DNA of 64,000 nt, from NCBI RefSeq assembly GCF_005404945.1, contig NZ_BJDG01000006.1, positions 62,001 to 126,000 of the forward strand, read 5' to 3'. Positions 3,707 through 50,223 of the stretch are shown here, piece after piece. The notes beneath the pieces were generated by a model. The model was not told the origin of the DNA. It worked only from the letters and a program-made list of their open reading frames with translations, and ran no database searches. The position numbers and the translations under genes were made by a program. Source of the DNA: Lactiplantibacillus pingfangensis (GTDB lineage Bacteria; Bacillota; Bacilli; Lactobacillales; Lactobacillaceae). The first letter of the stretch is position 1, and each line of letters begins with the position of its first letter.

Positions 3707-4082
3707 GAGGTTGAAAGGACAAAAGAGCTCGTAAACACTGTCATATAGGCAACTGGCACTTCCAAATTAGTCGCGATTCTGCCTAACTCCGCTAAACCCA
3801 ACCTAAGAACAGTTAAGATAGCTGGAAGTCGCCGCTGATAGCATCGGTCGTGACCGTGGCGTTGGGTCGGCATGTTTCTTGCCGGCGTTACGCCACGGAC
3901 GGTCTGGGATACTTGCGATTTTTGCAAGGATTCCAGGCGAGGGCCAAGACGTCCCTGGCTTGGCCCGGTCCCACGGCCGCATGTTATCAGTGGCGACTGG
4001 AAGCGGCACTATCAACTAATCTTCATACCTTAATCATTGACATGACAGTAATTATTAGCGATTTTGATTTTTCAACCTTTAG
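3707..4082 (+). repeat. Composite intergenic repeat, copy A (contains module 1)
   Basis: Fills most of the gap between the phosphodiesterase-like and esterase genes. Ends are inverted copies of AGGTTGAAAGGACAAAA (3708-3724 and, reversed, about 4063-4079). It contains cloverleaf module 1 at 3829-3996 flanked by CTGGAAG (3822-3828 and 3997-4003). It lacks structured module 2, but keeps the sequence CCAAATTAG that in copy C belongs to an ISL3-type transposase remnant. Short ORFs crossing it are not convincing. Confidence 0.8.
3829..3996 (+). repeat. Structured module 1, copy A (cloverleaf fold)
   Basis: 168 bp with terminal inverted repeats (TCGCCGCTGATAG / TTATCAGTGGCGA). Within the closing stem, CGGTCGTG pairs with CACGGCCG, and three hairpins follow: CCGTGGCGT/ACGCCACGG, CTTGC/GCAAG and GGGCCAAG (3941-3948)/CTTGGCCC (3959-3966). 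The third stem changes sequence but stays paired in the other copies. Confidence 0.8.
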
Positions 4083-4091
4083 AAGACAATC

Positions 4092-4119
4092 AAAAAAAGC
4101 CCGCAACATGCGCGGGCTT
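4092..4119 (-). terminator. Rho-independent terminator of the esterase gene
   Basis: AAGCCCGC / GCGGGCTT stem followed by seven T on the minus strand, just after the stop at 4130. Confidence 0.85.
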
Positions 4120-4129
4120 GGGGGTTAGA

Positions 4130-4966
4130 CTAATTTTCATCGTGCAAGTAACCTTGCAACTGTAACCAACGAACTGCCAGTGGGAGCCAATGCGCGGCTT
4201 GGTCATTGAGATACTTCGTTTTATGTGGCTTCTTCGTCACGTGATTGGCTAATGCCAACCCGTGAATGCCGGAGCCAAATAAATGGTACTCTGTCTCAAG
4301 ACCTAATTGCATTAGCGTCTGGACGTACATCATCGTATTGATCGGTGGCACTAACTCATCGGTCACCGTCTGCCAGACAAATGCTGGCTTGCTTTGCGCG
4401 TTCAACAATTTTTGGGCAGCAAATAGCGTTGGATCAGTCGTAATCTTATCACGCTCAGCCACCGTAGTTGGAAAACCAGCATCCAAATCAATCACTGGAT
4501 AGCCTAAAATGACTGCGGCATGTTGCCCCACAAATTGATTAAGCTGGTACTTGGCACGCAATGCCGGATCAGTCGCAATCCCGTTATAGTCCGCGACCAC
4601 ATGCCCACCAGCAGAAAAGCCGGCCAAAATGATTCGATCTGGATCAATATGATGTGCGCTGGCTTGCTTTGTGACCCAGTCAATCGTTTGACCAAGCTGT
4701 TGCAATGCCCACGGATAAACTTTACTTGTCGCTGTTTCCAACTGATAGTTTAAAACGACCGCATGCATCCCCTCCGCGACAAATCGCATCGCAATGGGTG
4801 CTTCCTCACGACCAGAATGATAAGTAAACCCACCACCGGGACAAATAATAATGACCGGATAATCGACCGTTTCCCCAAAATCTGAAACTTGATCTAGCCA
4901 ATAAGCCGTCACTTTAAATGGATGTTCTTGCGTGACTAATGTTTGTTGTTCTACTTGCATCTTCAT
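4130..4966 (-). CDS. Alpha/beta hydrolase, esterase/acetylesterase-like
   Basis: 278 residues, the usual size for the hormone-sensitive-lipase / acetyl esterase group. The oxyanion motif is PGGGFTYHSG (about residues 43-52), the nucleophile serine is in LAGFSAGGHV (about 114-123), the acid is in TVTDELVP, and the catalytic His is in GSGIHGLAL. No signal peptide is seen, so it acts inside the cell, probably on small acyl or phenolic esters. It is single and divergent from the GntR gene at 5166; the shared 160-bp promoter region holds a candidate GntR site also found before the PTS gene at 41.8 kb. The exact substrate cannot be read from sequence. Confidence 0.87.
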   Translation of the reverse strand: MKMQVEQQTLVTQEHPFKVTAYWLDQVSDFGETVDYPVIIICPGGGFTYHSGREEAPIAMRFVAEGMHAVVLNYQLETATSKVYPWALQQLGQTIDWVTKQASAHHIDPDRIILAGFSAGGHVVADYNGIATDPALRAKYQLNQFVGQHAAVILGYPVIDLDAGFPTTVAERDKITTDPTLFAAQKLLNAQSKPAFVWQTVTDELVPPINTMMYVQTLMQLGLETEYHLFGSGIHGLALANHVTKKPHKTKYLNDQAAHWLPLAVRWLQLQGYLHDEN

Positions 4967-6283: not shown

Positions 6284-8908
6284 TCAGTGTTCACGCCGTA
6301 ACCGGACGGCACCAACTAATCCGATCATCGTTAAGGCTAATAAGCCCCAAATATCTGTTGGCCGTTGTTCACTGGTCTGCGGTAACTTTGCCGCAGTAGT
6401 TGACGGCGATAACGCCACGTTCGTCTGTGAGCCGCGTGGCGATAACCGTGGCTGATTGACCGCTGCTAAATGAACTTGTGAGTGAACCGGATGTGACCGA
6501 TAAGTCATCGTCACTGGTTTGGCTGACGCGCTAACCGTGCTGCTTGGCCGACTAGTAGACATCGTCGGTGTTGCCGTTGACGTGGCTGCATCGGGTGCAT
6601 AATAGAAGGCCACCGTCGTTGCCGCATTCGCGTACGCCCCCGTTGCCGAGTCATTGGAGACCAAATGATAGCCAGCAATCGTTGGGGCAGTCACATCATA
6701 TGGGCTATCAACCGCGCCGGTTAACTCAGTTGCCGGCTGCAAGGCTTTCGTCGTCTGTGCCAAATAATAGTCAACGTCAACAGTCCCCGTCTGAGGCTGA
6801 TAAGTCACCGTTTGCGTCAAATCAGGACTGTCGGCCGTAACGCTTGTTGCCGGCACTTGTGCGGTGTCAGGTTCGTAATCGGCAATAGTTGGCGCATCCA
6901 GCGCGTCAAAGCCACTAGCGCTAACTGGTTGCCAACTCGTGTATTTCGTTTCACCGGTAACGGCATCCCGAATCGCATTTCGTTGAAAGGCCACTTGGCG
7001 CGTGACGCTTGGCGCAGCTTGCTGGCCATCCGCATACTTAAAGGCAATGGTTTGCGTGACATTGTGTGTCAACGTCACCCCAGTTGGCAAAGTGTCACCA
7101 GGTTTGAGCGTGACTAACTGATGGGTAAATAGTACCCGATAAGATAAAATTGGTGCCGCCGAACGATAAGTCGAGCCATCAGTTGGATAACCATTGCTGA
7201 CTAATTGATACCCTTTCGCTTCATAACCACTAATCGCCAATGCGGTTGGGTCAGGAATCGTACCCTCATACGGAATTGTTACAGTGGTACTCCCAATATT
7301 CTTATTAGTCATCGCATCAAGATAATTGATCACCCGAGTCACTGTCACTGGGGAATACTCATAAGTAATCGTGCCTTTATCAAGTGGCAACGTCCCGCTA
7401 GTCGCTAAACTATCAGTGCCAACCTGCTTAAAGACATAATTGCCGATCGTCGGTGGCGTCTCTGTATAACTATCACCCACATCACCGTTAACTTGCTTAG
7501 CTGGCACAATCGGTTCGCCGTCAGGATCGAGGTACTCAACCGTAATCCCGCCTGCAACTACCGCGGAAGTTTGCCCAGTTGAGGCCGTTGAGCTAGCTGA
7601 AGTGGCCGTACTCGTTGCTGTGGAAGCCGCACTGGTACTAGTTGATCCGGCGGTTGACGCTGTGCTTTTGGCTGTCGATGCAGTACTGGTACTTGTCGAG
7701 CTGGCAGTTGACGCTGTGCTCGTAGCTGTTGAAGCCGCACTGGTACTAGTTGATCCGGTGGTTGATGCTGCGCTTGTGGCCGCCGAAGCTACACTAGTAC
7801 CTGTTGAGGTTGCAGCCGATGTACCTGTTGAAGTCGCGCCATCACTCATCACCATCGAATCGGCTGTTGACGCTGCACTGGTGCTGGTTGAACTAGCTGT
7901 TGACGCAACGCTTGTGGCCGTTGAAGCCGCACTTGTACTGGTTGAGCTGGCAGTTGACGCAACGCTTGTGGCTGCTGAAGTTGCACTAGTGCTGGTTGAA
8001 CTGGCGGTTGACGCCGTACTCGTGGCAGTGGAAGTTGCACCAGTGCTTGTTGAGCTAGCAGTTGAATCTGTACTAGCGGCAGTGGAAGTTGCGCTAGTGC
8101 TAGTTGAACCAGCTGTTGATGCCGCGCTTGTAGCTACCGAAGCCGCACTTGTACTGGTTGAACTGGCGGTTGAATCTGTACTAGCGGCAGTGGAAGTTGC
8201 GCTAGTGCTAGTTGAATCAGCTGTTGATGCCGTGCTTGTTGCTGCCGAAGCTGCACTAGTACTGGTTGAAGTTGCTGTCAACGTACTCGTTGAAGTAGCG
8301 CTGTTGCTCATCACCATTGAACCAGCAGTTGAAGCTGTACTTGTTGCTTCAGAGGCTGTACTCGTTACTGTTGAACTGGCGGTTGAAGCCGCACTTTTTA
8401 CTTCAGAAGTCGTGCTCGTTGCTGTTGAGGCAGTACCCATGGCCGTCGAAGTTGCACTCGTGCTTGCTGAGCTTGTCGCACTACTATTCGTCGCCATCGA
8501 GCTGGCAGTTGACGACGCACTTGTTGCTTCAGAGACCGTACTCGTTACTGTTGAACTTGCTATCGTACTCGTCGCGGCACTAGCGGGCATTGAGCTTTGT
8601 GCCGAGCTAGTACTTGTTGTGCTTTCTGAACTTGTGGCAGCTGAAGCTGTTGTCGCCGTCGACTTAGTTGTGGTCGAACTATCAGAAAGTGCAGCTGAGC
8701 CAGCTGTCGTGCCGGCAGCACTTGTCGGTGCTACGGCAGTTGTTGGTGTCGTCGCAGCACTTGCGGTGACCGGTTTAACAAGTAAAGCGGCCCCCAACGC
8801 ACTACTGCCAATCAAAACAACCATTGCCGTACACCATTTCTTGCCGGACTTATACAGCCGGTAATGCGTCCGAACAGTTTCGGATCGCTGTAATTGTTTA
8901 AAACGCAT
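6284..8908 (-). CDS. Ser/Thr/Ala-rich cell-wall-anchored protein with MucBP-like domains
   Basis: 874 residues from the ATG at 8908, chosen because AGGAGT lies seven bases upstream; the GTG at 8917 falls inside that SD. Order: KxYKxGKxW signal peptide (HYRLYKSGKKW) with cleavage near residue 50, a roughly 400-residue low-complexity stretch built from Thr-Ala-Ser units (DNA 7.56-8.76 kb), then MucBP-like beta domains (VEYLDPDGEPIVP; VINYLDAMTNKNIG; VDVDYYLAQTTK), and an LPQTSE sortase signal with hydrophobic tail and RLRREH end. It is likely O-glycosylated and adhesive. No accessory Sec or glycosyltransferase genes are nearby. It is 46 bp after the gene at 8954 with no terminator between, so probably co-transcribed. 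Confidence 0.9.
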   Translation of the reverse strand: MRFKQLQRSETVRTHYRLYKSGKKWCTAMVVLIGSSALGAALLVKPVTASAATTPTTAVAPTSAAGTTAGSAALSDSSTTTKSTATTASAATSSESTTSTSSAQSSMPASAATSTIASSTVTSTVSEATSASSTASSMATNSSATSSASTSATSTAMGTASTATSTTSEVKSAASTASSTVTSTASEATSTASTAGSMVMSNSATSTSTLTATSTSTSAASAATSTASTADSTSTSATSTAASTDSTASSTSTSAASVATSAASTAGSTSTSATSTAASTDSTASSTSTGATSTATSTASTASSTSTSATSAATSVASTASSTSTSAASTATSVASTASSTSTSAASTADSMVMSDGATSTGTSAATSTGTSVASAATSAASTTGSTSTSAASTATSTASTASSTSTSTASTAKSTASTAGSTSTSAASTATSTATSASSTASTGQTSAVVAGGITVEYLDPDGEPIVPAKQVNGDVGDSYTETPPTIGNYVFKQVGTDSLATSGTLPLDKGTITYEYSPVTVTRVINYLDAMTNKNIGSTTVTIPYEGTIPDPTALAISGYEAKGYQLVSNGYPTDGSTYRSAAPILSYRVLFTHQLVTLKPGDTLPTGVTLTHNVTQTIAFKYADGQQAAPSVTRQVAFQRNAIRDAVTGETKYTSWQPVSASGFDALDAPTIADYEPDTAQVPATSVTADSPDLTQTVTYQPQTGTVDVDYYLAQTTKALQPATELTGAVDSPYDVTAPTIAGYHLVSNDSATGAYANAATTVAFYYAPDAATSTATPTMSTSRPSSTVSASAKPVTMTYRSHPVHSQVHLAAVNQPRLSPRGSQTNVALSPSTTAAKLPQTSEQRPTDIWGLLALTMIGLVGAVRLRREH

Positions 8909-8953
8909 CCTAAACACTCCTTTTTTTTCAAAACTGATGCTAATAAAAACACG

Positions 8954-11950: not shown

Positions 11951-13702
11951 TTAAAACCACCAGAATGGCCGCCAAAAACTACGCCTTTGAAACGTATAAT
12001 GTGGCCGACTAGTCGTCTTAGCAATCACGTGATGTGTCGCCTGTTTTGGTGTAAAGAACTGTACAATTGGTCGGAAGAACCAATTGATAATCTGCTGGAA
12101 GAATGACAACACGCGTCGAACGAATTTTACAATTTTAATCACAACTCGATGCACCGTTACTGGGTTAGTCGCCGCACTGCCAGCCGTTGAAGTTGCGGTT
12201 GACGCAGATGAGGTCGCAGCACTCGTTGATGCTGAGGTTACTGTGCTCGTTGCCGCACTAGTTGCCGTTGATGTTGGGGCCGTCGAAGCTGTAGTGCTCG
12301 TTGCAGTGCTTGTTGGCGCGGCTGAAGCCGATGATGTCGCAGCACTGGTTGCCGTGCTTTTGGCTGCACTAGTTGCCGTTGAGGCAGCAGTCGAAGCTGC
12401 CGATGTCGCCGTGCTTGTTGCGGCTGAAGTTGCAGTACTTTTTGCGACACTAGTTGACGATGACGATGCAGCCGATGATGTCACGGTACTTGTTGTCGCA
12501 GAAGTTGCCGTTGAGACTGGCGCAGTCGATGCTGTGGCGCTCGTCACTGTGCTGGTTGGCGCGGTTGAGGCAGATGATGTCGCAGCACTTGTTGCCGTAG
12601 AAGTTGCAGTACTTTTTGCTACGGTTGAGGTCGCTGCAGTTGTACTCGTTGCTGTAGACGTTGGTGCGGTTGAGGCGGCTGAAGCTGCAGTGCTTGTTAC
12701 CGCTGACGTTGCTGTACTTTTTGGCGCACTAGTTGCCGTCGATGTTGGCGCGGTTGAGGCAGTCGAAGCTGTGACGCTTGTCGCCGTGCTGGTTGGCGCG
12801 GTTGAGGCGGTCGAAGCCGATGATGTCGCAACACTTGTTGCCGCAGAAGTTCCCGTTTTTGCGGCACTAGTTGCCGTTGAGACTGGCGCAGTCGATGCTG
12901 TAGCACTCGTCACCATACTGGTTGACGCGGTTGAGGCGGCCGAAGCCGACGATGTCGCAGCACTGGTTGCGCTTGAGGTTGCAGTACTTTTTGCGGCACT
13001 AGTTACCGTTGAGCTTGCTGTTGACGTCGGTGCAGTTGAAGCTGGTGCGGTCGATGCAGCCGATGATGATGACGTCGTAGCACTTGTTGCACTCAAGGTT
13101 GCAGTATTTTTTGCGGCACTAGTTGCCGTTGAGCTTGCTGTTGACGTCGGTGCAGTTGAAGCTGGCGCGGTCGATGCAGCCGAAGCTAATGATGTCGCAG
13201 CACTGGTTGCCGTTGAGGCTGCAGTACTTTTTGCTACACTAGTTGTCGTTGAAGTTGGTGTCGTTGATGCAATAGCACTAGTTGTCGTTGACTTTGGTGC
13301 CGTTGATGTGATTGCCGCGACACTTGTCGCTGTAGATGCAGGTGCTGTTAAGCCAGTTGCAGGCGTACTTGACCCAGTCGCTGTGCTGGCTGGCGCAGAA
13401 GTCGTCACTGCCGAAATCACGGTTCCAGCATCACTTGTAACGGTTGCTGCTGGTGCTGCACTAGTCGTCGCCGTGCCAAGAATTACTGAATCAGCATGTG
13501 CCGACGACGTGCTGACAGGTGCCACCAAAGGATCAGTTGTCCCGGCAGCGCTCGCCGCATTAGCCGGATTTGCCAAGGATTGACTGCCAATTAAAAGACC
13601 ACCGAAAGCTAATACTAGTGATACAAGCCATCTCTTACCACTTTTATACAGTTTATAATGACTGTGACTGTTCTGAGATTTTTGAAGCTGTTTCAATCGC
13701 AT
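11951..13702 (-). CDS. Ser/Thr/Ala-rich secreted protein with basic, aromatic tail and no LPxTG
   Basis: 583 residues from the ATG at 13702 (a TTG lies six bases earlier). A KxYKxGKxW signal (HYKLYKSGKRW) is followed by about 430 residues of Ser/Thr/Ala repeats (TSTATSAAKSTATSAAT style). The last 65 residues differ sharply: two amphipathic or hydrophobic basic stretches (VVIKIVKFVRRVLSFFQQII, NWFFRPIVQFFTP) and an end rich in Arg, Phe and Trp (RRSFWRPFWWF). There is no LPxTG signal, so retention, if any, would be by the basic-aromatic tail binding membrane or wall polymers. The frame is open to the stop, so this is not an obvious truncation. Confidence 0.85.
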   Translation of the reverse strand: MRLKQLQKSQNSHSHYKLYKSGKRWLVSLVLAFGGLLIGSQSLANPANAASAAGTTDPLVAPVSTSSAHADSVILGTATTSAAPAATVTSDAGTVISAVTTSAPASTATGSSTPATGLTAPASTATSVAAITSTAPKSTTTSAIASTTPTSTTTSVAKSTAASTATSAATSLASAASTAPASTAPTSTASSTATSAAKNTATLSATSATTSSSSAASTAPASTAPTSTASSTVTSAAKSTATSSATSAATSSASAASTASTSMVTSATASTAPVSTATSAAKTGTSAATSVATSSASTASTAPTSTATSVTASTASTAPTSTATSAPKSTATSAVTSTAASAASTAPTSTATSTTAATSTVAKSTATSTATSAATSSASTAPTSTVTSATASTAPVSTATSATTSTVTSSAASSSSTSVAKSTATSAATSTATSAASTAASTATSAAKSTATSAATSSASAAPTSTATSTTASTAPTSTATSAATSTVTSASTSAATSSASTATSTAGSAATNPVTVHRVVIKIVKFVRRVLSFFQQIINWFFRPIVQFFTPKQATHHVIAKTTSRPHYTFQRRSFWRPFWWF

Positions 13703-14121
13703 ATGCAAGGTGCCCCTTTCTTAATCCTGCAATTTGAAATTGCACCTTAGGTTTAACACCTGACTTTTTTAACCACAATTCACATTCTCAGCACATCGCC
13801 GATTTTTCCGGCTAACTGTCCCAAATTCCGTTAGTAAATTTTACTTAGTATTTGCTCGTTTCCATCAATCTTTTTATGATGCCCAGCAATATCGCTGGCA
13901 TAAAATCGGTCTTATTTAGGGATTTTTGATAATTTAGCTAATAAAAAAACCCAGCACTGCTCTCACTTTTTGCCAGTATTTTCAATCAAATAAACCGACG
14001 ATTGGTTTAGATTATTCGGATACTTTACTTAACCGGCTCACGCTAAACTGATTTAATAAGTTTGACGATCGAACTTATTTCGCTTTTCATCAGATAAATC
14101 AAAAAATCAGCCTAATAATAC

Positions 14122-21350: not shown

Positions 21351-21690
21351 TGCTCATTCCTCCATGCTGTTCTCTTTAAGCAGTACCACTCACTGACACC
21401 GCTTTCTTAATTGAAATTGTATCATTAATTCAGACGTAATTTACCCCTTTCAACCTAAAAGAAATTACCTAACCAAATTCATCACGCGACTGTGATTAGT
21501 TTCAGTCAGTTTCCAAGGTGAAAATAATTTGCGAGTAGCCAAATAAAAAATCGCTCAAACTTTCTCAAGTTGTGATAGCTATCGTACTTTTGACGCTTTC
21601 ACTGAAGGTTGAAAGAACAAAAGGACTCGTAAATATTGTCATATAGACAACAGGCACTGCCAAATTAGTGGTGATCCTGCTCCGACATGC

Positions 21691-21844
21691 AAAATCGCTG
21701 TGTTATATGGGATAGCCGCAGCCATAGTACGGTCTGCGACTTCGATTTAAAGCCGATAATCCACGTCTTTGGATCGCCCTGTAAGATTAGGCGGTCAAAA
21801 CCCACTGACCAATCTTACCGACACAGCACAACAATTCTGCCTGC
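21691..21844 (-). repeat. Structured module 2, copy B
   Basis: Related to 26836-26999 and 49963-50119. Stems seen: GTAAGATT / AATCTTAC and AGTCGCAG / CTGCGGCT (one wobble pair), inside terminal inverted repeats (AATTGTTGTGCTG-like). The inner CGAT/AATCG stem of the other copies is weakened here. Confidence 0.7.
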
Positions 21845-21885
21845 TTCCGCTAAAACTAGCCTAAAATAATTAAATTAGCTGGAAG

Positions 21886-22049
21886 TCACCGCTGATAGTA
21901 TCGGTCGTGAGGGTGGTGTTGGGTCGGCATGTTTCTTGCCGACGTTACACCGCGGACTGTCCGGGACACTTGCGATTTGTGCGAGGGTCGAGACGTTAGA
22001 CGTTCCTCAGGCTTGACCCGGTCCCACGGCCGAATGCTATCAGTGGCGA
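21886..22049 (+). repeat. Structured module 1, copy B
   Basis: 164 bp; terminal repeats TCACCGCTGATAG / CTATCAGTGGCGA. Compared with copy A, the third stem changes to GGGTCGAG (21985-21992) / CTTGACCC (22012-22019) and the first stem to GTGGTGT / ACACCGC, both still paired. Confidence 0.8.
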
Positions 22050-22142
22050 CTGGAAGCGGTCATGTCAACTAATCTTCATGCCTTAATCATTGACATGGCA
22101 GTAGTTACTAGCGATTTTGACCTTTAAACCTTCACTCATAAC

Positions 22143-26693: not shown

Positions 26694-26716
26694 GTACACT
26701 AACTATCAAATGAACT

Positions 26717-27025
26717 AAAGGTTGAAAGATCAAAATTCCTAATCATTGCCGCCATGTCAATGATTAGGTCATGAAGACTAGTTGCCATGACCGCTTCCAG
26801 CTAATTTAACTGTTTTTAGGTTAGGTTTAGTGGAAGCAGGCAGAAATCGTTGTGCTGTGTCGGTAAGATTGGCCGGCGGGTCTTGGCCGCCTAATCTTAC
26901 AGGTCGATTTAAAGACGTGGGTTATCGGCTTTGAATCGAAGTCGCAGACCGCACTATGGCTGCGACTGTCCCACCATAGCACAGCAATTTCTGCCTGCTG
27001 AAGCGGAATTACCACTAATTTGGAT
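26717..27025 (-). repeat. Composite intergenic repeat, copy C (module 2 only, empty module-1 site)
   Basis: Begins with AAAGGTTGAAAGATCAAAA (26717-26735), runs opposite to copies A and B and contains module 2 at 26836-26999. At the place where A, B, D and E carry module 1 it has a single CTTCCAG (26794-26800), that is, an unoccupied target. Its far end passes into the ISL3-type transposase remnant. Confidence 0.8.
26836..26999 (+). repeat. Structured module 2, copy C
   Basis: Terminal inverted repeats GCAGGCAGAAATCGTTGTGC and its near complement. Internal stems: GTAAGATT / AATCTTAC, CGATTTAAAG / CTTTGAATCG and AGTCGCAG / CTGCGACT. GTGGG in a loop can pair with CCCAC outside it, a possible pseudoknot. 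Confidence 0.75.
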
Positions 27026-27198
27026 CTGAAGTTTACAAAGCAACCAAAATTATAAGTGACGCGTTTGAGCACTTTGAGTTTGTTAGTCGTTTCTTCTAGC
27101 GGATTCGGGTTCGATTAAAGCCAACAATGACGGTATTAACGATATGAAAACGATCAATCACAAGGTGAAAATAATTTGCGAGTAGCCAAATAAAAAAA
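27004..27198 (-). pseudogene. ISL3-family transposase remnant
   Basis: The minus strand reads NYFHLVIDRFHIVNTVIVG, matching the second catalytic Asp region of ISL3 transposases, then after a deletion and frame change NPLEETTNKLKVLKRVTYNF and GCFVNFRSKLVVIP, matching the C-terminal end (EATNNKIKxIKR type). No start, and most of the protein is missing, so it is a dead fragment. It joins composite repeat copy C without a gap. Confidence 0.7.
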
Positions 27199-28542: not shown

Positions 28543-28716
28543 CGAGTCTGGGACAGCCCTCCAGACTCTTTTGTCGCTCCAAATAGTTATCCTCGAAACG
28601 TGGAACAAGAGGCTGCGACCTCCGCTTAGTCTAGGGAACCAAACGATTGCAAGCCCCAATCATCCGGTTTCCTAGGCTATGCTCGGTAGCAACCCGCCTT
28701 TTGTCCCACTCTTGCC
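28543..28716 (-). repeat. Repeat family 3, copy 1
   Basis: The reverse complement matches 37508-37684 over about 175 bp, with an almost identical first 80 bases (GTGGGACAAAAGGCGGGTTG and onward). It folds as one long hairpin closed by GTGGGACAA / TTGTTCCAC followed by a second hairpin GAGTCTGG / CCCAGACTC. No promoter is obvious before this copy and no ORF is convincing. The rest of 28190-28540 shows nothing recognisable. Confidence 0.75.
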
Positions 28717-37489: not shown

Positions 37490-37697
37490 TATAATAGAAC
37501 TCTGAGAGAGCAAGCGTGGGACAAAAGGCGGGTTGCTACCGAGCATAGCCTAGGAAACCGGATGATTGGGGCTTGCAATCGTTCGGTTTCCGTAGCTCTG
37601 TTGCATCCGTGCCTCTTGTTCCACGTTTCGAGGATAAATATTCGGAGTTACAAACGAGTCTGGGGTTTTGTCCCAGACTCGTCGGAGGAGAGATTAG
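37490..37697 (+). promoter_or_regulatory. Promoter and structured leader of the lipoprotein gene
   Basis: TATAAT (37490-37495) with a weak -35 places the transcript start near 37502, almost exactly where repeat family 3 begins. The repeat therefore forms a leader of about 195 nt whose last hairpin (GAGTCTGGGG / CCCAGACTC) ends just before the SD GGAGGAG. The 37102-37489 stretch is AT-rich with nothing but the NrdR boxes. Confidence 0.5.
37508..37684 (+). repeat. Repeat family 3, copy 2
   Basis: Same family as 28543-28716, opposite strand. Terminal stem GTGGGACAA / TTGTTCCAC, inner stem GGAAACCG / CGGTTTCC and apical GATTG / CAATC, then hairpin GAGTCTGGGG / CCCAGACTC. Confidence 0.75.
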
Positions 37698-39564: not shown

Positions 39565-39845
39565 AAGGTTGCAAGTCTCAAAAGAAACGTGAACAGAACC
39601 ATATCAGCAAACAGTCGCTCCTAAACTTGACTCATGGTGAGCAACTCCGTTAGCTGTAGGTTGGGACTGATCTCATCGGTCGTGCTGGTGGCGTTAATCG
39701 GCCGTTTTTGCCGATTTTACACCACGGACGGTCCGGGACACTTGTGGTTTTGGCAAGGGTTCCGGGCGAGGACCAAGACGTGCTTGGCTTGGTCCAGTCC
39801 CACGACCGCATGTTATCAGTCCCAACCGAAAGTGGCAATCTTGAC
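39565..39845 (+). repeat. Composite intergenic repeat, copy E (module 1)
   Basis: Left part begins AAGGTTGCAAGTCTCAAAAG, a diverged form of the outer repeat. Module 1 is at 39661-39825 with flanks CTGTAGG (39654-39660) and CCGAAAG (39826-39832), which are altered copies of the CTGGAAG duplication. The repeat ends against the stop codon of the PTS gene at 39846, leaving no room for a separate terminator. Confidence 0.7.
39661..39825 (+). repeat. Structured module 1, copy E
   Basis: 165 bp; terminal repeats TTGGGACTGAT / ATCAGTCCCAA. The third stem is GGACCAAG (39770-39777) / CTTGGTCC (39788-39795) and the first hairpin AATCGGC / GCCGATT. It could also end transcription of the convergent-side PTS gene. 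Confidence 0.8.
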
Positions 39846-49650: not shown

Positions 49651-49770
49651 CAGCGTTGCTGTTTTTAATTACTTTGACTTAATGATTAGTGTTTGAAAAC
49701 ATAAAATTCGCAAACACCCCACCGTATCACTAATCGGCTATACAAATTAGTTGAAGATTGCCGCTTCCGG

Positions 49771-49935
49771 TTGGGACTGATAACATGCGGTCGCGGGACC
49801 AGTCCAAGCCAAGGTCGTCTTGGACTTCGCCCGAAACCCTTGCAAAATACACAAGTGTCCCGGACCGTCCGTGGCGTAAAATCGGCAAGAACAGCCGATT
49901 AACGCCACCATCACGACCGATGCTATCAGTCCCAG
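49771..49935 (-). repeat. Structured module 1, copy D
   Basis: 165 bp; terminal repeats TTGGGACTGATA / TATCAGTCCCAG. Third stem AGTCCAAG (49801-49808) / CTTGGACT (49819-49826); first hairpin GTGGCGT..AATCGGC / GCCGATT..ACGCCAC on the minus strand. Confidence 0.8.
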
Positions 49936-49962
49936 CCTTCAGCTAATCGGGCTTAGCGAAGA

Positions 49963-50119
49963 CAGCTAGAATCATTGTGCTGTGACAGTATGATTGGTCG
50001 GCGTTCTTGGCCGCCTAATCTTACTGGGCGATTCTAAGACGTGGGTTATCGGCTTGGAATCGAAGTCACAGACCGTACTTTGGCTGGGACTGTCCCACAT
50101 AGCACAACGATTCTGGCTG
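49963..50119 (+). repeat. Structured module 2, copy D
   Basis: Terminal inverted repeats CAGCTAGAATCATTGTGC and its near complement. Stem CGATTCTAAG / CTTGGAATCG stays fully paired although two positions differ from copy C. Confidence 0.75.
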
Positions 50120-50223
50120 ACGTAGCGCTCACCACAATCACTGATTTAGAAATGTCCGTTGTCAACATGACAGCTTGGCAAGTAGAAACACTAGTGAATG
50201 CGATTTAAAAAATCCCCAACATG

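Follow-up and report, generated by a model that had tools for sequence, protein, structure and literature searches.

A dispersed, covarying multibranched fold of Lactobacillaceae, carried in Lactiplantibacillus by an IS4-type MITE

BOX repeats have a modular build. The BOX and RUP repeats of Streptococcus pneumoniae have been described as interspersed and presumed to be moved in trans (PMC3049150), and REPINs and BIMEs as doublets of REP sequences that go with RAYT transposases (PMC3116915). The MRSC-65-2 motif forms a single long stem with a UYCCGG repeat and occurs in diverse phyla (PMC11109978). In Lactobacillales, the RNA motifs lactis-plasmid, Lacto-rpoB, Lacto-usp, and Lacto-int have been reported by Weinberg et al. 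2010 (PMC2864571).

The repeat described here lies in a stretch of 64,000 nucleotides of Lactiplantibacillus pingfangensis (NZ_BJDG01000006.1, positions 62,001 to 126,000), referred to below as the window. An earlier sequence-only reading had noticed four copies of a cloverleaf-like module with compensatory base changes and knew of no Rfam family like it. The latter point is borne out: at the gathering thresholds of Rfam 15, no family was found in the window or in 8 further loci, and the best-placed sub-threshold match around the first copy was rli42, with 14.5 bits against a threshold of 80. Searches of the open-licence PMC literature turned up no description of the repeat. The fold is real, covaries strongly, is mobile and occurs in pairs; it is new within the reach of these searches, and apparently represents an undescribed family of non-coding many-copy repeats that keep their shape while the letters change. 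Large, strongly covarying and without an Rfam match, it recurs many times over in the genomes of a bacterial family known from food and gut. It provides a clean case for asking whether bacterial dispersed repeats are selected as folded strands, and by which enzyme they are moved.

Fold, copies and covariation

Copies in the window and beyond share a topology of two stacked three-way junctions. The closing helix is long, is interrupted by a GGA/GGA internal loop, and leads to hairpin P2 and then to P5, a 4-bp helix (GGAC/GTCC) that encloses hairpins P3 and P4. In copy 1 (3818..4007, plus strand, 206.8 bits by cmsearch, supported also by fold and covariation), the helices lie on the plus strand at 3821-3823/4002-4004 (P0), 3827-3852/3972-3998 (P1), 3856-3871/3881-3896 (P2), 3897-3900/3968-3971 (P5), 3902-3916/3924-3938 (P3), and 3941-3948/3959-3966 (P4); P0 reads GCT/AGC in the majority of copies of the same genome. 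The closing stem with three hairpins proposed earlier stands as a branched fold with three hairpins, but P5 encloses two of them, and the simple cloverleaf gives way to the stacked junctions. For copy 1, the folding energy is -120.7 kcal/mol on the plus strand (z = -12.2 relative to dinucleotide shuffles) and -88.7 kcal/mol on the minus strand. Conservation extends to unpaired bases, 18 of 51 such positions being conserved at 85% or more. Near-invariant positions occur in the GGA/GNA loop, at T bases of P2, and at A.G mismatches in P3 and P4; the loop and the mismatches are kept across genera.

A cmsearch of the window recovered the four copies where they had been noticed, the fourth on the minus strand. 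Copy 2 (21875..22060, plus strand) scores 155.5 bits and its P3 is damaged by a 6-base deletion; copy 3 (39650..39836, plus strand, 183.8 bits) is solitary and has a second type of closing stem, GGTTGGGACTGAT/ATCAGTCCCAACC; copy 4 (49760..49946, minus strand) scores 188.3 bits. The third stem had been considered paired in all four. In copy 2, the stem GGGTCGAG is built from bases brought together by the deletion, so that one of those four comparisons is non-homologous. This stem is also broken in some other copies of the genome, where column pair 127/150 is unpaired in 9 of 33.

The module is a dispersed repeat and not a single-locus RNA gene. The 41 matches listed for its own genome, the best of 133 candidates, comprise one 43-base fragment and none of window copies 2-4, so the genome holds at least 43 copies (40 among the matches listed, together with these three). 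As a DNA query, copy 1 found matches in 11 of 60 genomes, its own included. The covariance model R1, considering the best 8 matches per genome, placed the module in 52 of 301 Lactobacillaceae genomes and 10 of 40 genera, again with its own included. An order-wide draw of 345 genomes gave R1 matches in 9, and the sole one outside the family was a single copy in genome G592 (L292:958-1126, 51.6 bits). That copy lacks P2, keeps the P3-P4 motifs and the long closing helix, and is located between convergent ORFs. No model match was obtained at 35 loci of other bacteria that contain a chance-common 17-base word. Carriage by plasmids or phages was rejected, as copy 1 was unmatched in both collections.

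The sequence-only reading had proposed that more copies be aligned with a covariance model and tested for covariation. The test applied was a home-made equivalent of R-scape, consisting of a G-test with APC and a null that moves substitutions along the tree. The first alignment, on which R1 is based, contains 71 copies from six Lactiplantibacillus genomes. In it, 93.4% of the cells are paired, both sides change in 38 of 68 pairs, none of 500 shuffles reaches the observed pairing, and slid registers give 31-43%. Within the structure set, 9 of the 68 pairs are significant (E<0.05); when all column pairs were tested in a slightly different alignment of the genus, only 4 passed at E<0.05, all of them structural. 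A second set comprises 38 modules from 26 loci in five genera (22 loci from four other genera and 4 from distant congeners). In its model-fitted alignment, 45 of 68 pairs covary significantly (E<0.05, structure set), and 24 pass against all column pairs, 24/24 of them structural. The same modules in a structure-blind MAFFT alignment gave 36 significant pairs of 67, and 16/16 structural pairs against all column pairs. Covariation in the 71 copies and in the 38 modules thus upholds the view that a folded nucleic acid is under selection, beyond what terminal repeats need.

Other repeats are also present in the window. Another intergenic repeat occurs in inverted copies at 28543-28715 and 37510-37681 (…GAAACGTG…CACTCT), with stem-like arms; by eye, sequences resembling this repeat were seen in the prs intergenic region of several genomes of another genus (for example at L164-L166, L176, L180, and L183-L185). 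Repeats of 54 bp and longer at 7533-8323 and 12147-13314 fall in the long minus-strand ORFs 6284-8917 and 11951-13708, which perhaps encode repeat-rich surface proteins.

Divergent pairs and their carrier element

The unit of the repeat is a divergent pair (<- ->), in which the sequence beside the module (B) is a diverged, inverted module copy (A). In Lactiplantibacillus, all 22 A modules tested, from 21 loci, are detected by R1 on the strand opposite to B, with 58-91 bits; a B module read on the wrong strand scores 18-51 bits. A and B are therefore inverted paralogues, and the idea that A is an unrelated neighbor was rejected. The isolated module of the earlier description holds as a folded unit, but that description missed its inverted, divergent counterpart and the IS4-type MITE in which the pair is placed in this genus. 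Pairs are not confined to the genus: in 11 of the 26 loci of the 38-module set, with matches accepted up to E 0.001, two modules stand back to back and read outward, 16 to 266 bp apart; distant congeners account for two of these loci. At one further locus, L134, both modules are in the same orientation. Many modules bear TTAG or CTAG at the 5' foot. An autonomous gene between distant modules was considered in genome G158, where they are 4 kb apart, and was rejected, since the ORFs look ordinary by eye.

In the window, the partner of copy 2 lies at 21675..21854 on the minus strand (covariance model, 48.6 bits, E 1.9e-10) and that of copy 4 at 49952..50130 on the plus strand, 5 bp from copy 4 (62.8 bits, E 5.9e-14). 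A third A module (26826..27008, plus strand) has no B module; it is contained in a MITE at about 26715-27023 (TIR 26715-26727), in which TTAGCTGGAAG runs straight into CGGTC where B is missing. The MITE around copy 1 (3708..4082, plus strand) has an exact right TIR at 4070-4082 and the left TIR AGGTTGAAAG, and a covariance-model search of the window gave no partner module in it. Around the pair of copy 2, the MITE spans 21605..22133 (plus strand), with decayed TIRs and ends set by eye; the TIRs of the window copies are partly decayed in general. The same 37-bp sequence is found at 21514-21550 and 27161-27197, close to the outer side of two MITEs. In genome G013, a B module without recognisable MITE ends (L083) adjoins apparently the same terminator and gene as window 3818-4130, which looks like either an inherited site or repeated targeting.

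The carrier is best seen in genome G020, where the pair sits in an element of about 540 bp with the ends CTAAAGGTTGAAAG...CTTTCAACCTTTAG. Its TIRs of 13-14 bp, CTAAAGGTTGAAA, are common to the MITE copies and to a 1567-bp IS that is flanked by duplicated ATAGGAG and encodes a 457-aa IS4-family transposase (NF049925, E 5.9e-138). Ends could be placed by script for 17 elements, namely 16 composites and the IS, and 2 of 19 loci gave none. Exact target duplications of 7-10 bp border 11 of the 17, and the other 6 have none that is exact (up to 2 bp offset); read by eye, the duplications are 7-9 bp long. The B modules of TIR-bounded G020 copies are 96-100% alike, and 8/17 composites carry internal deletions of more than 15 bp. 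This anatomy shows that the Lactiplantibacillus pair is the cargo of a MITE, putatively moved in trans by an IS4-family transposase. Related transposases occur in 5 of 21 genomes of the genus, and the only relative in the own genome is broken (G000:C2:121278-122437, 58-59% identity). It was also considered that B is itself an insertion with a CTGGAAG duplication, the copy at 26715 resembling the empty site. This was not upheld, because the GGA/GGA foot accounts for the CTGGAAG direct repeats and the parts lost differ among G020 copies. Loci L061 and L065 have the same 69-bp deletion, which may reflect transposition after the deletion, but no shared variants.

IS4 as a general partner is not supported. 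Across the family, an IS4 relative occurs in 28 of 301 genomes, and 8 of these 28 also carry the module, little above the roughly 4.8 expected. Of 26 units, 4 have near-TIRs (at most 4 mismatches in 13 positions) at either end, 2 of them among the 22 units outside the genus, and 191 of 520 random stretches match one side; in these 22 units, IS4 TIRs thus do not flank the modules beyond chance, with L174, whose ends are near-TIR-like by eye, as an exception. A Y1 transposase was rejected as a general partner too: of 16 module-rich genomes, 8 have one and 8 lack it. The surroundings of the Y1 genes and IS4 relatives that were retrieved contain a single partial match to the module, at the edge of L281. 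Beside the modules, no recurrent protein was seen except reading frames that cross the module and paralogues, for instance of transporters, and none of these neighborhoods yielded a partner enzyme other than IS4.

Strand bias, gene context and the level of selection

The strand that reads outward folds better in all 100 distinct B copies from six Lactiplantibacillus genomes (means -105.8 vs -87.4), in every one of 27 primary modules sampled from distant congeners or other genera, and in 33 of 35 distinct partner modules, the strand of which was set with a B-trained model that may favor the better-folding strand. On a tree of the 100 B copies, single changes from a Watson-Crick pair to G-U were compared with those to A-C. 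Internal branches gave a ratio of 33:13 (p = 0.005), terminal branches one of 93:66 (p = 0.04), and the pooled tree one of 126:79. Without strand-specific selection 1:1 would be expected, and the G-U excess makes such selection on the fold likely; it also favors RNA over single-stranded DNA as the folded strand. In one composite scanned for promoters, 1 site was predicted where 0.6 were expected. Divided by length, terminal branches gave 35:31 (up to 8 changes), 47:29 (9-15), and 11:6 (more). Internal branches differ from the short terminal ones at p = 0.05 and from all terminal ones at p = 0.12; as the tree covers a minority of the copies of each genome, terminal branches may include older history. 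A weaker bias in the youngest resident copies is suggestive, and its confinement to older branches is suggestive only; this borderline contrast hints that selection on the fold acts when copies propagate.

Evidence on resident copies comes also from the prs locus of another genus. Between genomes G322 and G174, 25 positions differ but only 4 pairs are broken, against 10.4 when the substitutions are placed at random (minimum 5 in 200 placements); between G322 and G197, 9 pairs are broken against 18.1 at random (minimum 12). At the latter two sites (L157/L158), the partner module is 95% alike and the flanks 90-97%, whereas the spacer (63%) and B (74%) are far less alike than the partner module, so that this segment was probably exchanged with another copy by recombination; compensatory change in place was rejected for this comparison. 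Selection in resident copies and at propagation may both act.

Gene context was assessed for 101 copies in six genomes with a strict ORF rule, chosen lest frames within the element pass for genes, which classified 79 and left 22 unclassified. Among the 79, 32 lie between convergent genes, 42 between tandem genes (28 with B against the genes and 14 with them), and 5 between divergent genes. For gene pairs of the window with gaps of at least 60 bp, a similar ORF rule gave 18 tandem, 8 divergent, and 7 convergent. The classified copies lie at a median of 68 bp from 3' ends, compared with 156 bp from 5' ends. The majority of classified copies being at gene ends, mRNA ends in industrial strains may be affected.

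A tentative reading, to which we give well under even confidence, is that the fold is selected as an outward-reading single strand and takes part in a folded-strand step of element propagation. It builds on the covariation, the better folding of the outward strand, the G-U bias, the A/B pairs, the MITE with its matching IS, and the conserved unpaired positions. Multibranched non-coding folds of about 190 nt are dispersed in Lactobacillaceae, often as divergent inverted pairs, and in Lactiplantibacillus the pair rides a MITE putatively moved in trans by an IS4-family transposase. The selected strand, most likely RNA, would read outward from each module. Copies destined to propagate would be the target of selection, at least in part, and those that stay resident would drift and decay; the folded-strand step, either recognition by a protein or protection and tolerance in transcripts, would help decide which copies multiply. 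We infer the RNA nature of the strand, its binder, and the step of action. Several results sit uneasily with this propagation reading: the difference between internal and all terminal branches (p = 0.12), the G-U excess on intermediate and long terminal branches, about 69 Watson-Crick compensated double changes on terminal branches of the tree, the keeping of pairs at the prs locus, which speaks for selection in resident copies, the lack of IS4 TIRs beyond chance outside the genus, and a co-occurrence of module and IS4 relatives in the family that is little above expectation. IS4 cut-and-paste transposition, besides, needs no internal fold. A rather doubtful SINE-like scheme would have the element multiply only if its transcript or excised single strand takes on a paired, multibranched, outward-reading fold and is recognised by an enzyme acting in trans, with capture by an IS4-type MITE in Lactiplantibacillus. 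The distal, outward module in read-through transcripts from either side could instead be useful to the host by stabilising mRNA 3' ends or limiting read-through, as REP elements do. This is a real, though improbable, competitor, which draws on the placement of the classified copies (74 of 79 lie beyond the 3' end of one gene or more), their closeness to 3' ends, the few broken pairs at prs, and the G-U excess on pooled terminal branches. The placement, however, is partly explained by insertion next to terminators, since a terminator-like T-tract lies within 25 bp of 8 of 17 TIR insertions in G020 against 54 of 575 random flank positions (coding DNA included); moreover, the youngest copies show little G-U bias, internal parts have been lost from 8 of 17 G020 copies, and the prs site of genome G283 holds only an apparent remnant without a model match.

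Inverted doublets, strand-specific imperfect folds, the TTAG/CTAG foot, and many intergenic copies recall REPINs, in which case the folded DNA strand of the doublet would be the substrate of an HUH/Y1 or other single-strand transposase acting in trans. We consider this unlikely: G020, with its very similar copies, is among the genomes without Y1, and those copies bear DDE-type TIRs and duplications, while the fetched Y1 genes adjoin only that one partial match. A mutational origin, by palindrome-templated repair or template switching between arms, would yield compensatory changes without selection and accords with near-perfect arms, whole stems that change together, and double changes on terminal branches too. 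It predicts no strand bias, though, against the 33:13 on internal branches and 126:79 overall, and arm repair should erase the GGA/GNA loop and the P3/P4 A.G mismatches conserved across genera; this makes it quite improbable. Least probable, and only slightly credible, is a pure IS4-type MITE in which the fold is an inert ancestral passenger. The close likeness of TIR-bounded B modules and the tolerance of internal deletions after insertion agree with a passenger. Covariation across five genera contradicts it, and units in other genera have no recognisable IS4 TIRs. The propagation reading is the one favored, in its tentative form, beside these competitors.

Comparison with described repeats

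The motifs of Weinberg et al. resemble the module as candidate structured RNAs of the same order. Three of them carry Rfam numbers, and no Rfam family matches the window; Lacto-int is given without a number in the passage concerned of PMC2864571. BOX and RUP are similar, by description only, as modular interspersed repeats in a related order. MRSC-65-2 is likewise a covarying repeat with many copies per genome, and many antisense modules carry TTCCGG or CTCCGG at their foot; the module differs from it in being branched and, within the order searched, almost restricted to Lactobacillaceae.

REPINs and BIMEs come closer, with inverted doublets, intergenic sites, strand-specific folds, and a lack of autonomy. 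Their unit is a short palindrome, whereas here it is a module of about 190 nt with two three-way junctions, and Y1 is absent from half of the 16 module-rich genomes (8/16). The Lactiplantibacillus element agrees with IS4-family MITEs in being short, non-coding and present in many copies, in having target duplications, and in having the TIRs of an autonomous IS. What is added here is its cargo, two conserved multibranched folds in inverted arrangement, and modules of this type occur in other genera without recognisable TIRs of this kind.
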